Source of the DNA: a virus
Virus record (IMG/VR): IMGVR_UViG_3300042319_000971
Coordinates: 1-21,001 of that record
Length of the DNA: 21,001 nt
Reading direction: 5' to 3' (one strand)
In this document: piece by piece, positions 1,574 through 6,225 of the stretch
Layout: each line of letters starts with the position of its first letter
How positions within the stretch are numbered: the stretch's first letter is position 1
Notes under the pieces: model-generated
The model's input: the letters and a program-made list of their open reading frames with translations, nothing else
The model's database searches: none
What the model was told of the DNA's origin: nothing
Translations under genes and position numbers: made by a program

Positions 1574-2025
1574 AAATTAAAGAAATAATTTCTGAAGCTC
1601 CTGCAGGCGACATAGGTCATGCTGTTGGTCATACAACAAATGCTGCCGCTAAAGGAATTGGGGCTGTAGCTGGTGCAGTAGCAGGAGCACCAAAGCGTGT
1701 TGCCAAGGGAATTAAATCAGGAGCAGCAGCTTTTGATAAACTCATGTCCCCTAGTCAATGGTTCGGTGGCAACGATGACGAACCTAGTAATTTTGAAAAA
1801 GACACTGCTAAAAATGATAAAGCAGATGCCGCTGCTTATAAAGCCACTGTAACATCTGTATCACGAGGAATGACTCCGAACGCTCAGGACATTTCAAATC
1901 TAAAACAGTTAGCAGCAGGTTCCAAAACTCCAGAAGAACAAGCAGTATTAAAAGCTGCTTATTTGGGACTCCGATTAAATCCTGAACAAGTAGCGATAAT
2001 CAAACAGGTAGCTGCTAGGCTCTAG
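1570..2025 (+). CDS. Second putative capsid-targeted glycine-zipper protein, paralog of the preceding gene
   Basis: This 151-residue protein begins MKIKEIISE followed by Ala. This is again a capsid-targeting-like nonapeptide ending in an ISE site suited to gp21 cleavage. Residues about 17-52 (AAAKGIGAVAGAVAGAPKRV, then KGIKSG) align closely with the glycine-zipper segment of the upstream protein. The remainder has no Ala/Pro linker. It holds a charged middle and a C-terminal helical part (NLKQLAAGSKTPEEQAVLKA) ending in VAARL. Translation is coupled to the upstream gene through an ATGA overlap. Its TAG stop shares the palindrome CTAG with the stop of the convergent minus-strand gene. The function is unknown; an internal or ejected virion protein is the best inference. 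Confidence 0.7.
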   Translation: MKIKEIISEAPAGDIGHAVGHTTNAAAKGIGAVAGAVAGAPKRVAKGIKSGAAAFDKLMSPSQWFGGNDDEPSNFEKDTAKNDKADAAAYKATVTSVSRGMTPNAQDISNLKQLAAGSKTPEEQAVLKAAYLGLRLNPEQVAIIKQVAARL

Positions 2026-2249
2026 AAAAACGGTAGTCCAGTTTTTTTAGTTGTTTCTAAATTTTCTTTTATTATCTCACCAACTATGTCTCTTTCTTCG
2101 GGACTGAAATTCATTACTTCAGCGTATGAAAGTCCGCGCATATACCAACATAGCTGTAATGCTTCTTTTTTAATCACCCTTGCCTGCTTGTCTAACTTGT
2201 CTGATAACTCTACGATCTCAGGTAGGGTCAGTCCGGAGATCTGACTGCG
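2022..2249 (-). CDS. 51: gp51-like hub-assembly/tail-chaperone segment, probably made by -1 frameshift from gp26
   Basis: This frame codes for 75 residues, including DKLDKQARVIKKEALQLCWY, then MRGLSYAEVMNFSPEERD and the C-terminus KENLETTKKTGLPFF. I recall similar short proteins annotated as gp51, baseplate hub assembly catalyst, in T4-like marine phages, but cannot verify this here. In this frame there is no ATG before the internal one in WYMRG, and no ribosome site. GTG in ARVIKK is a weak alternative start. The frame opens just upstream inside gp26 and is entered exactly by a -1 slip at TTTTTTC (2249-2255). That would fuse 283 residues of gp26 to these 75, giving 358 in all. The composition and C-terminus argue that it is a real gene. 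The name is moderately sure and the mode of expression is inferred. Confidence 0.65.
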   Translation of the reverse strand, partial: RSQISGLTLPEIVELSDKLDKQARVIKKEALQLCWYMRGLSYAEVMNFSPEERDIVGEIIKENLETTKKTGLPFF

Positions 2250-3097
2250 AAAAAATTTGAATTATCCATGGTAATTGGGATATCAAATACTGTCGAACAT
2301 TCACCACAGGCAACATTTTTCACTTTGAATTCCATGCCTGCTCTCATAGACGTGAGATGTGTTTGAATTTTATCAAATATGTCTTTAGGACAGTTGTTGA
2401 TAAATTCTTTGATCTGTGCTTTATCTGTGCTTACACCGTCTGGTGTTTCTATGCCAGTGATACAATCGGCAATGACATCGATGGTAAGTTCAGTAATTTT
2501 TACAAAACTTTTGCCAAACTTTTCTAACTTAGCTTCATCGTCAAGCTCTTCATCATTGATCACAGTGAACAACTTCTGTTGTTCCATGGTCTTGAGACTG
2601 ATTTTTGTTGTTTCTTTGTATGAATAAGGTCTTATTTTGATAGTCAACGGGTCAGCATGCACTGTATCATTGTATTCAAAATTAAGGAACATATCCATCC
2701 AGGGCTGTAGAGAAATAGGATAGGTGTTCTCTGCGCTGCATTTTGGACACTTGCAGTCAACATCCATTCTATCACCATATGTGGCAATACGAATAGCTAT
2801 CAACACAAAATCTAAATCTAAGCTAGGCATTGACCAAGGTTCCAGTAGGGCAGGGAAACAACTTTTGATCACTTCAACAGTGCTTTGTCCTGTGAGCAAA
2901 GCGTCTGGAGTTTTAAACATCAACTCATCTTTGGCAGTCATTGAATACACAGGATATTCATCATTGGCGCTGCGATCCAAGGCGTTCTGCGGATAGAAAT
3001 TGCCTTTGCTAGGCAATCTCACATAAATTTTTGGTTGTCTGAACCATCCAGCAAGAGGATTCTTCTGCGTCTGGTTTTGATTAGGAATTTGGTTCAT
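2228..3097 (-). CDS. 26: Baseplate hub subunit / assembly protein, gp26-like
   Basis: The 289-residue protein resembles the T4 gp26-type baseplate protein family (Pfam T4_baseplate), which is needed to build the baseplate hub. The N-terminal QNQTQKNPLAGWFRQPKIYV followed by LPSKGNFY is typical of that family. Four cysteines, C117/C120 (KCPKC) and C264/C267 (CGEC), form two CxxC knuckles, suggesting a zinc ribbon. The acidic middle (INDEELDDEAKLEKF) is helical. The start is supported by GGAG seven bases upstream and by a perfect minus-strand late box, TATAAATA, at 3132-3139. The stop lies just beyond a slippery TTTTTTC and inside the overlapping gp51-like frame. It is divergent from the tape-measure gene. 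Family assignment is fairly firm; zinc binding is inferred. Confidence 0.85.
   Translation of the reverse strand: MNQIPNQNQTQKNPLAGWFRQPKIYVRLPSKGNFYPQNALDRSANDEYPVYSMTAKDELMFKTPDALLTGQSTVEVIKSCFPALLEPWSMPSLDLDFVLIAIRIATYGDRMDVDCKCPKCSAENTYPISLQPWMDMFLNFEYNDTVHADPLTIKIRPYSYKETTKISLKTMEQQKLFTVINDEELDDEAKLEKFGKSFVKITELTIDVIADCITGIETPDGVSTDKAQIKEFINNCPKDIFDKIQTHLTSMRAGMEFKVKNVACGECSTVFDIPITMDNSNFFAVRSPD
2249..2255 (-). promoter_or_regulatory. Predicted -1 ribosomal frameshift site T TTT TTC
   Basis: On the minus strand the gp26 frame reads AAT TTT TTC GCA. The heptamer T-TTT-TTC lets both tRNAs re-pair after a -1 slip, and the shifted frame is exactly the gp51-like one. Phage P2 uses the near-identical TTTTTTG between its tail-chaperone genes E and E'. 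A weak hairpin (CAGTC/GACTG, 9-base loop) follows almost immediately, closer than usual for a stimulator. Confidence 0.6.
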
Positions 3098-3131
3098 TTT
3101 ATCTCCGGTAAATATATAATAATCTGCATTG

Positions 3132-3139
3132 TATTTATA
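3132..3139 (-). promoter_or_regulatory. T4-type late promoter (perfect TATAAATA)
   Basis: The minus strand reads CATATAAATACAA, a perfect match to the T4 late consensus TATAAATA. It lies 35 bases before the gp26 start, leaving room for a leader and the GGAG ribosome site. It sits in the 71-base divergent region shared with the tape-measure gene, whose own promoter is less clear (AT-rich 3112-3122). Confidence 0.75.
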
Positions 3140-3168
3140 TGCGTATTTTATCAGGAAAAAAATAAATC

Positions 3169-6100
3169 ATGGCATCTGTGTTCATTGATATCCCCGGAAT
3201 AGGTACTGTAGAAGCCAAGAACGCTGCTTCTGAAGCAACCTTGCAGGCAATTCTTCAGACAATGCGAGCAGTTCAACGGAACACCCAGCAGAGAGGTGGT
3301 GCAGGTGGTGGTGCAGGTGGTGGTGCAGGTGGTGGTGCAGGTGGTGGTGCAGGTGGTGGTGCAGGTGGTGGTGCACAAACAGTAAGCGGAAAAGCAGCTT
3401 CATTTGCTTCTAAAATGGCTGCTCAGTCAGCTGGCCAATTTGCAAAATCTGCTGGATATGCCGGACAAATGGCTAATCAAGCCAGCAAGGCGATTAGCGG
3501 GGTTGCAGGCACCGTTGGCTTTCTTGGCAAAGGCGCTAGTTCAGCTGTTCGAGGAATCAATAATCTAGCTCAAGCCGGGGTATCCGCAGCTGAAGGTCTA
3601 GCTAATATGAATGACAGTCTGACTTCAGCAGCCAGCGCCTTAAATGCAATACCAAAAATAGGAGGACTACTAGCAGGTATTTTTGGAGCAATAGCAGGAG
3701 CCACAGAAAGTTTAGCAGCGTCAATAAAAGGAGCCACAGCCAGTGGTGCTTCATTTGGCGGATCACTAAGCCAACTACAAGCGTCATCTGCCCAGGCAGG
3801 CATGACCATGGAAAAATTTGGTAAACTCGTAGCAGAAAACGGACAAGCCATGGGTGCATTTGGATCTACCACAGAATCCGGAGCTAAGAATTTTGCTAGG
3901 CTCAGTGGTCAATTAAGAGCAGCCGGCGGCGATTTGTATGCGTTGGGATTTGGTACCGAGGAAATAAATCAGGGATTGGCTAATTATGGCAAACTATTAA
4001 AACACCAAGGACTGCAAGGAACAAAATCTAACGCAGAACTAGTAGATGGCTCTAAAAAATATCTTAAAGAAATGGACTTGCTGGCTAAAATAACCGGTGA
4101 AACCAGAGCCGATAAAGAAAAAGAACGAGAAGCACTTGTAATAGATCAACAGCTAGCAGCAGCTATGGTAGGTATAAATGAGGATGTGGCAAAATCGGCA
4201 CATAATTTCATACAATCTATGCCTAAAGGAGTCATGAGAGACTTTGCCAAAGACATGATAGCCAACGGTACTGCAACCACTGACGCCAATAAATTATTGA
4301 TGAGTCAATATCCTGGACTAGCAGCACAAATGACTAGTCTGCATTCCAGTACACAGAGAAATGTTAAGATTACTGACGATCAAACAAAATCTGCCCTAAT
4401 CATGGGCAAGGCAGAATCTCAGAACTTAAAAAATACCAAAACTGCTGTGGCAGCAAACACCAGTGAGCTAGGAGTGTTAACTGATGGCTTTGTGGGGTTC
4501 AACAACGTTAACGTAGCTGCTATCGATACTGCAAAAGCGCAACAGGATGCCGCAGCAGCTGGCACTGACGGCACGTTACAAAATGTAGAAGCCATGAAGT
4601 CTCAACTGGCAGCTCTAAGTGATAATATCAAAATGCAGTTGATGGCCAGCGGAGGACTGGGCATGATGATGGGAATAATACAAAAATTAGCTGATTTTGT
4701 CATTGCTTATGTGATACCGGGTATCGGCATGTTAATACCTATACTGGGAAAGATATTTGACGGTGCTATGATGATTATAAAACCGATCATGGAATCATTA
4801 ACCACGGCATTTGGTAACATGGGCGGCACGTTATCAGCCGTGGACAATGTGTTAAACTGGTTATTTGAAACTCTGAACGGAGCAGTCCGAGGTGGTATAT
4901 TAATCTTTGAAAGTTTACTGCGAGCATTTGACACACTGTCGGGGCCTTTTTCAAGACTATCCGCTGCGATATTTGGCACTGAGGAAAGCACAAATAGTTT
5001 TTCAAACGTCTTGATACTAGTAGGTGATGCTGTGGGAACAGCGTTTGAAATTCTAGCCAAGGTCATCGGTTTTGTAATAGACTTTGCGATACTACCGTTG
5101 GTAGACGTGTTTAACACCTATCTCATGCCAACCATCAAAGCTGTAGGCGGCTTTTTCATGGATTATCTAGTGCCTATACTTGTAGCAGCAGGAGTAGCAT
5201 TTTTAGCATTTAATGCGTTGACAATAGCAGCCACCGTGGTAAAATTTGCTTATATGGCAGCTATGCTTGTTGCTACTGTTGGCCTTGGTCTTTTAGCTGC
5301 AGGTGTAGCCATAGTGGCAGGTGCGTTTGCTCTGCTTACTAGTCCTATAGGATTAGCCATAGTTGCGATCTCTGCGTTGATTATTATTTTTAAGAAAGCT
5401 GGCGGAGATTTCCAGGTGGTAACAGATGGTCTCAAATATCTTTGGAGCGGATTACAAACTTTCTTTAGTGCATTAAAACTGGGATTTTTTAAAGTATTAG
5501 ATGCACTGCCTGGAGTTGATTTTAGTAAAGAGATAGAAGAAGAAGAAAAAAAGATAGTAGAACAAAAAGCTGAAAGAGAGGAACTGGTAACAAAAATGGC
5601 TACCAGAATGGAGGAGAATAAAGCAAAAGCCGCTGCCGATGCTGCCAAAGGAGACAGTAAAGAAGAAGGTGGTTTACTAAACAGCCTCAAAGGGTTGTTC
5701 AACATAGATCACAAAAATAGAGCAGGCGCTCACATAGAACAGAAAAATGCACAGGTGAGTGCATTCAAAGGTATTCCGGGAGCAGTCAGTGGTGGCATAT
5801 CAGGTGGAATGCCATCACTCAAGGAAGGTGTCAAGGAAGGTGTCAAGGAAGGAGCAGCAAAACCCACAGATTTTAATGCTGGCCCAGAAGCATTGCTAAA
5901 ACAATTTGCTCAGAAAGAAGGCAGTCCTTTAGCTGGCGCTGACGCTCAAAAGCAGGCCATAGTAGCAGAAGCTGAAAAGAAAAAACAAGACGAAGCTGCG
6001 GCCAAACAAAAAGACGAAGCTACCAAAAAGAAAGAAGAAGAAGAAAAAAACAAAAAGAAAGAAGAAGAAGAAAAAAGTAAAAAACCAGAATCTGCGGAAA

Positions 6101-6225
6101 CCTTGCTTGCGCAGTTAAATACTAATATGATAAAACTGTTAGCACACGCAGAACAAACTACTAAAAATACGTATGCTACCTATGATGCAGCTAAGGGATT
6201 GAATAAGAATCTATACAAAGCATGA
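3169..6225 (+). CDS. Probable tail tape-measure protein (gp29-like role)
   Basis: At 1018 residues this is by far the longest complete protein here, and it has tape-measure architecture. The N-terminal helix (residues 1-40) leads into a Gly/Ala linker of six perfect GGGA units (43-69). Ala/Gly-rich helices follow to about 480. A strongly hydrophobic centre lies at about 494-545 and 624-745. Lysine/glutamate-rich coiled-coil segments follow near 786-830 and 925-978. Tape measures set tail length at about 1.5 angstrom per residue, so up to about 150 nm would be predicted. The adjacent divergent gp26/gp51-like pair fits the usual tape-measure/chaperone pairing. The start follows AGGA at a long spacing. 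The stop overlaps the portal gene as ATGA. Direct homology to T4 gp29 could not be shown by eye, so the role is inferred from architecture and context. Confidence 0.72.
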   Translation: MASVFIDIPGIGTVEAKNAASEATLQAILQTMRAVQRNTQQRGGAGGGAGGGAGGGAGGGAGGGAGGGAQTVSGKAASFASKMAAQSAGQFAKSAGYAGQMANQASKAISGVAGTVGFLGKGASSAVRGINNLAQAGVSAAEGLANMNDSLTSAASALNAIPKIGGLLAGIFGAIAGATESLAASIKGATASGASFGGSLSQLQASSAQAGMTMEKFGKLVAENGQAMGAFGSTTESGAKNFARLSGQLRAAGGDLYALGFGTEEINQGLANYGKLLKHQGLQGTKSNAELVDGSKKYLKEMDLLAKITGETRADKEKEREALVIDQQLAAAMVGINEDVAKSAHNFIQSMPKGVMRDFAKDMIANGTATTDANKLLMSQYPGLAAQMTSLHSSTQRNVKITDDQTKSALIMGKAESQNLKNTKTAVAANTSELGVLTDGFVGFNNVNVAAIDTAKAQQDAAAAGTDGTLQNVEAMKSQLAALSDNIKMQLMASGGLGMMMGIIQKLADFVIAYVIPGIGMLIPILGKIFDGAMMIIKPIMESLTTAFGNMGGTLSAVDNVLNWLFETLNGAVRGGILIFESLLRAFDTLSGPFSRLSAAIFGTEESTNSFSNVLILVGDAVGTAFEILAKVIGFVIDFAILPLVDVFNTYLMPTIKAVGGFFMDYLVPILVAAGVAFLAFNALTIAATVVKFAYMAAMLVATVGLGLLAAGVAIVAGAFALLTSPIGLAIVAISALIIIFKKAGGDFQVVTDGLKYLWSGLQTFFSALKLGFFKVLDALPGVDFSKEIEEEEKKIVEQKAEREELVTKMATRMEENKAKAAADAAKGDSKEEGGLLNSLKGLFNIDHKNRAGAHIEQKNAQVSAFKGIPGAVSGGISGGMPSLKEGVKEGVKEGAAKPTDFNAGPEALLKQFAQKEGSPLAGADAQKQAIVAEAEKKKQDEAAAKQKDEATKKKEEEEKNKKKEEEEKSKKPESAETLLAQLNTNMIKLLAHAEQTTKNTYATYDAAKGLNKNLYKA
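3295..3375 (+). repeat. 12-bp tandem repeat encoding (GGGA)6
   Basis: After a GGT GGT GCA start, the unit GGT GGT GGT GCA is repeated six times without a single base change. It encodes Gly-Gly-Gly-Ala units in the tape-measure protein. Perfect identity, including third positions, points to recent expansion by slippage. Changes in copy number would stay in frame. Confidence 0.95.

Follow-up and report, generated by a model that had tools for sequence, protein, structure and literature searches.

A predicted -1 frameshift signal with a covarying downstream stem-loop in a gp26-family gene of the T4 superfamily

The gp26-family gene and its surroundings

Near one end of the window (the whole stretch of 21,001 nucleotides of viral DNA analysed here), a gene of the gp26 family overlaps a second open frame on the same strand and stands back to back with a tape-measure-like gene. 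The features of this locus are listed in Table 1.

Table 1. Features of the gp26-family locus in the window
Feature	Coordinates	Strand	Basis and remarks
-1 extension (TAC-C, gp51-like)	2022..2255	-	Translation; FF + 75 residues + TAG stop
Stem-loop region	2210..2245	-	Folds, pair counts and energy minimum; alignment columns 11-46, 10 bp in most relatives
gp26-family gene, short form (TAC-N)	2228..3097	-	ORF; 289 aa, C-terminus ...NSNFFAVRSPD followed by the stop
Slippery heptamer T TTT TTC	2249..2255	-	Sequence; gp26 zero frame (AAT TTT TTC GCA)
Tape-measure-like gene	3169..6225	+	phrog_991, tail length tape measure protein, E 1.5e-5

The product of the gp26-family gene matches the Pfam family T4_baseplate (PF12322; E 2.9e-18, 66.8 bits, above the gathering cut-off of 24.5) and the baseplate hub family phrog_150 (E 2.7e-21). 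Its AlphaFold model, graded good (pLDDT 83), is matched in BFVD by baseplate hub assembly proteins of T4-like phages (best E 5.5e-23) and also by Gp26 of Aeromonas phage 25. The 3' end of the gene reads AAT TCA AAT TTT TTC GCA GTC AGA TCT CCG GAC TGA; the TGA stop occupies positions 2230-2228, and the last base of the heptamer lies 18 nt before it. The initial annotation had placed the end of gp26 at 2228, with a T-TTT-TTC 18 bases ahead of the stop at which a -1 slip enters a second frame, and its coordinates, phase and spacing were all confirmed.

After such a slip, the -1 frame would read FF-RSQISGLTLPEIV...TTKKTGLPFF as far as a stop codon at 2022-2024 (the post-slip sequence being FF-RSQISGLTLPEIVELSDKLDKQARVIKKEALQLCWYMRGLSYAEVMNFSPEERDIVGEIIKENLETTKKTGLPFF), and the predicted fusion product has a length of about 358 aa. 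The initial description of this frame (2022-2249) as a 75-residue protein segment that lacks a starting ATG agrees with both the translation and a scan for start codons. The extension was modelled by AlphaFold with confidence (pLDDT 91) as a protein of four helices.

The gp26-family and tape-measure-like genes are divergent, with a gap of about 70 bp between them (3097-3169). A divergent large structural gene lies beside gp26 in many jumbo phages, whereas the arrangement in cyanophages and in phage Cr30 is co-directional: in Cr30 gp26 is followed by an annotated tape-measure gene, and the gene directly downstream of the gp26 locus in cyanophages and vibriophages is large and uncharacterised. 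At its start (3230-3400), the tape-measure-like gene of the window encodes a tandem repeat rich in Gly, GAGGGAGGGAGGGAGGGAGGGA; on the opposite strand the repeat opens long ORFs that are rich in Cys/Thr or in His. On the other side of the locus, two overlapping plus-strand ORFs with no function assigned (533-1573 and 1570-2025) converge on the end of the extension, and the stop codon of the second (at 2025) overlaps that of the extension (at 2022).

Conservation of the slip site, the extension and the stem-loop

The junction was compared in two samples of related loci. The first was matched on the extension protein, for which 546 relatives were found in IMG/VR and the best 80 were used; it comprised 84 loci (80 metagenomic ones, the jumbo phages Atu_ph07 and Phosso, and the window) with 61 distinct junctions. 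The identical heptamer TTTTTTC, in the same phase and followed by G, was present in 84/84 of these extension-matched loci, which are related by ancestry, so that this and similar counts do not represent independent events. Because of this uniformity in sequence and phase, the heptamer of the window cannot be considered a chance occurrence. The zero-frame stop lies 10-25 nt past the start of the heptamer throughout the set, and the codon that precedes the heptamer specifies N, S, D or H (AAT, AGT and GAT among them), its third base always being T. The FF pair itself is encoded by TTT-TTC in 34/34 gp26 relatives, compared with a TTC share of 18% among the other F codons of the gene (TTT 334, TTC 73).

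As the first sample had been found via the extension, gp26 was chosen as the anchor of the second, which was assembled from relatives in the phage collections and from searches with gp26 of T4, S-CAM1, a vibriophage and 121Q. Atu_ph07, Phosso and a few cyanophage-type and other isolates in it had first been reached via the extension, but most of its loci had not. T TTT TT[C/T] with a -1 ORF was found in 83/84 cyanophage-type loci, and the lone exception (L139) has the heptamer on a contig that ends inside the extension. The same combination was seen in 13/13 jumbo-phage loci (PA5oct, BF, XaC1, Munch, Vibrio 2.275, CBB, RaK2, GAP32, 121Q and an IMG/VR relative, SCTP-2, Atu_ph07 and Phosso) and in 7/7 other loci, including those of Cr30, phiN3 and two vibriophages. 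In four loci of the T4 clade in this sample no slip site was found. The heptamers GGGTTTA, GGGTTTG and AAATTTT, at first assigned to 15 loci, proved to be artefacts of picking an upstream heptamer with a slightly longer frame; a re-scan gave T TTT TT[C/T].

In Bacillus phage SP-15 (L095:2150-2290) and Rhodothermus phage RM378 (L100:2170-2210), a T6 or T7 run marks the end of gp26, and the ORF that could plausibly extend it is in the +1/-2 rather than the -1 frame. It is possible, judging from this layout, that -2 or +1 frameshifting occurs within the same gene family.

The extension shows the marks of a protein-coding sequence. Aligned as protein in 33 sequences, it is ungapped over 77 codons in 58 distinct sequences; its median dN/dS is 0.16 in the -1 frame, the two alternative frames giving 1.4 and 1.7, and mean heterozygosity at codon positions 1, 2 and 3 is 0.23, 0.13 and 0.48, respectively. 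By these measures the extension evolves as a protein in the -1 frame only. Alternatively, the extension might be a gene in its own right (gp51) that is translated through an internal start or translational coupling: in many cyanophage and jumbo-phage records a short CDS of its own, with a downstream start, is annotated, and the -1 frame of the window does contain two candidate start codons, GTG at +78 and ATG at +114. However, the conserved coding sequence extends back to the heptamer, ahead of any start codon, and the ATG at +114, which alone among the possible starts is conserved throughout the lineage, would halve the domain. The GTG, which lies within ARVIKK, is shared by the window with only three, nearly identical relatives (L004-L006), and initiation at this codon was rejected on that ground. 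No conserved start codon was found in the -1 frame ahead of the mid-domain methionine in the 84 loci, nor was any ATG found in the window ahead of this methionine (WYMRG). Independent initiation of the extension is hence very unlikely. The initial annotation had named a conserved start for the gp51-like frame, or loss of the heptamer from junctions with both frames intact, as findings that would speak against frameshifting; since the heptamer is conserved and neither a start codon nor the GTG is, no such sequence evidence was encountered.

Another conserved element, overlooked when frameshifting was first proposed for this locus, is a stem-loop downstream of the heptamer, whose covariation and energy minimum add to the support for that reading. 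In the window, the stable core of the stem is formed by 6 bp (2241-2236, GATCTC, with 2219-2214, GAGATC) and starts 7 nt past the heptamer, and the gp26 stop codon sits in the loop. With its 6 bp plus 2, this stem is shorter than that of most relatives, in which columns 11-20 pair with columns 37-46 over 10 bp. Among 42 non-redundant sequences, standard pairs occupy 89.8% of the cells of the 10-bp stem; when the partner strand is slid by 1-3 columns, pairing drops to 33-52%. Compensated double changes were found in 26 cells, against 7.2 +/- 2.3 in shuffles that ignore relatedness. The most informative pairs are 12:45 (UA, CG, AU, GU) and 15:42 (GC, AU, GU), whose four columns all coincide with third positions of -1-frame codons (AGT/AGC, AAG/AAA, ATC/ATT, TTA/TTG). 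The commonest states of these two pairs are seen in all four combinations, which suggests that both have changed repeatedly.

RNAalifold retained only a 4-bp core in the window lineage, where pair counting supports 10 bp, and revealed no common structure in a mixed set of cyanophage sequences, for which reason single-sequence folding profiles were used. In three separate lineages, the average folding energy of 45-nt windows is lowest exactly at heptamer +7: -12.1 versus a background of -5.0 kcal/mol in the window lineage, -10.7 versus -4.8 kcal/mol in cyanophages and -9.0 versus -5.2 kcal/mol in jumbo phages. The position of the stem-loop is consistent with a role in stimulating slippage.

The two frames could also be joined at the level of the transcript, if RNA polymerase slipped on the T6 run and U residues were gained or lost in the mRNA. 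Transcriptional slippage does happen on T runs, and the slip sites described here consist mostly of T6 and in a few cases of T7. T6 is, however, short for efficient transcriptional slippage, the run is fixed in the phase X XXY YYZ with a final C that is invariant in the window lineage, and it is followed by a covarying RNA hairpin at ribosomal spacing. Slippage of the polymerase is highly improbable in view of these features. That the two frames formerly were one ORF, now split by a sequencing error or by decay into a pseudogene (one single-base change would indeed join them), has virtually no chance of being correct and is refuted by comparison, as the two-frame layout is shared by dozens of independent assemblies and isolate genomes and the extension is under purifying selection.

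Predicted expression of a tail assembly chaperone pair

Programmed ribosomal frameshifting at this locus is indicated by a slippery X XXY YYZ heptamer in the zero frame within the overlap, a downstream open frame that is under protein-level selection and has no start of its own, and an RNA structure a few nucleotides past the heptamer. The overlap, the heptamer, the coding constraint on the -1 frame, the RNA structure and the presence of a single PF12322 gene per genome have been demonstrated by sequence comparison, and on the same basis we conclude with high confidence that a programmed -1 frameshift signal is under selection. The original proposal that such a frameshift fuses gp26 to a gp51-like domain is borne out by the heptamer, the lack of a conserved start and the dN/dS of 0.16. 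That slippage takes place in the window locus, and its efficiency, we infer from these sequence signals.

The gene very probably encodes a tail assembly chaperone (TAC) in short and long forms, which arise by a -1 slip at T TTT TTC. Most ribosomes would reach the gp26 stop and yield the short form (TAC-N). A minority would pause at T TTT TTC against the downstream stem-loop, slip back by one base and read 75 more codons, thereby producing the long form (TAC-NC). By analogy with gpG/gpGT of lambda, both forms may coat or bind the product of the neighbouring tape-measure gene and nucleate the tail tube; binding of the tape-measure protein and a requirement in tail assembly are predicted on this analogy. 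Typical of TACs are the short and long forms with a common N-terminus (the zero frame plus the -1 extension, as deduced from the sequence) and the position of the pair beside a tape-measure gene, divergent in the window. The assignment to a chaperone pair is suggested by the gene family, the neighbourhood and the literature.

This mode of expression is known from G/GT of lambda and E/E' of P2, in which short and long products are made by a -1 slip near a tape-measure gene. The window locus resembles them in these respects, and the P2 heptamer, TTTTTTG, is related to that of the window. There is, however, no detectable relation in sequence or fold, and the tape-measure gene of the window is divergent, while that of lambda lies downstream. 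Searches of the PDB with the gp26 and extension models gave no match at E <= 0.001, and sequence searches of the PDB with the two proteins gave no match. As no solved structure was matched, the link with the HK97/lambda chaperones is based on where the gene lies and how it is expressed, and not on fold.

Tail assembly chaperones of T4-like phages have been identified by Vladimirov, Gautam and Davidson (2022; Virology 566:9-15), whose work is considered here as it is cited in PMC10885494 and PMC12846349. According to these papers, the TAC-N genes of T4-like phages contain poly-T slippery sequences (PMC12846349), and some T4-like phages encode the short form and a long fusion in two distinct genes, in place of frameshifting (PMC10885494). 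The idea of frameshifting put forward in the initial annotation is thus supported, but for T4-like phages it had already been published. As far as the citing papers describe them, these TACs agree with the window locus in the gp26-family short form, the long form with a common N-terminus, the poly-T slip and the tape-measure neighbour. Relative to that account, the additions of this study are the uncultured lineage, the covarying stem-loop and the spread over annotated jumbo phages. The same kind of TAC frameshift has been described in Vandenendeviridae (PMC12846349). The TACs of Vandenendeviridae and Andersonviridae share with the window locus a -1 frameshift at a T run before a tape-measure gene and an extension annotated as hypothetical, but they belong to other phage families and use the motif GTTTTT (PMC12846349).

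Relation to T4 gp26 and gp51

In T4, the two proteins are encoded separately. T4 gp26 (208 aa) comes from a gene in which neither a slip site nor an extension ORF was found, whereas gp51 (249 aa) is the product of a separate gene on the strand opposite to gp26. Residues 1-201 of gp51 match PF12322 (E 3.9e-52), phrog_150 is matched over residues 3-248, and the two T4 proteins are similar to each other by BLASTP (E 3e-6). As judged from these matches, T4 gp51 is a full-length homologue of gp26 with a C-terminal tail. The family phrog_634, "baseplate hub assembly catalyst", is matched by this tail as well as by the extension of cyanophage S-CAM1. The extension of the window is related to those of jumbo phages (hhalign E 2e-21), and the latter show a weak match to cyanophage extensions (E 4e-4, probability 35%); a direct hhalign profile comparison of the window extension with T4 gp51 was not significant (probability 1.1). 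The label "gp51-like", used for the extension from the beginning, is therefore supported through the jumbo-phage and cyanophage intermediates and phrog_634, and not by a direct match to gp51.

A search for PF12322 genes in 18 records, some of which (metagenomic ones) may be incomplete, detected two per genome in three genomes of the T4 clade and a single one per record in 14 records with a slip site; SCTP-2 was below the threshold, yet its gp26 was found by BLAST. In the T4 clade the short and long forms therefore appear to be separate genes, while the others would rely on one frameshifting gene. What had been suggested for the lineage of the window, namely that gp51 is a frameshift extension of gp26, is accordingly supported for the lineages with a heptamer and a -1 ORF, but does not apply to T4 itself. 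T4 and the window locus have in common the PF12322 domain and, via the intermediates, the C-terminal extension; they differ in that T4 has two genes on opposite strands and no slip site in gene 26. Both T4 proteins have been listed as hub assembly chaperones (PMC3004832).

We consider it somewhat likely that the whole T4 superfamily, jumbo phages included, ancestrally made its two gp26 products by frameshifting with the downstream hairpin, and that the T4 clade alone replaced this mechanism by gene duplication and in-frame fusion of the extension, which gave rise to gp51.

Across records such as L092, L086, L097, L101, L105 and L107, the -1 extension is either missing from the annotation, as in RaK2, PA5oct and S-CAM1, or represented by a separate short gene with a downstream start, called "baseplate hub assembly catalyst" or hypothetical.

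To conclude, the analysis proposes a concrete role for a locus that is mis-annotated or omitted in many public phage records, corrects its gene model, and yields a set of naturally occurring slip sites, with covarying hairpins, on which bacterial frameshifting can be studied. The putative covarying stimulator and the contrast between one gene and the two genes of T4 are the parts most worth pursuing. If the proposed history is true, gp51, the long-unexplained hub assembly protein of T4, would be a former frameshift product. The analysis also suggests that gp51, described as essential but of unknown function, is the long form of the chaperone, a proposal that is directly testable.
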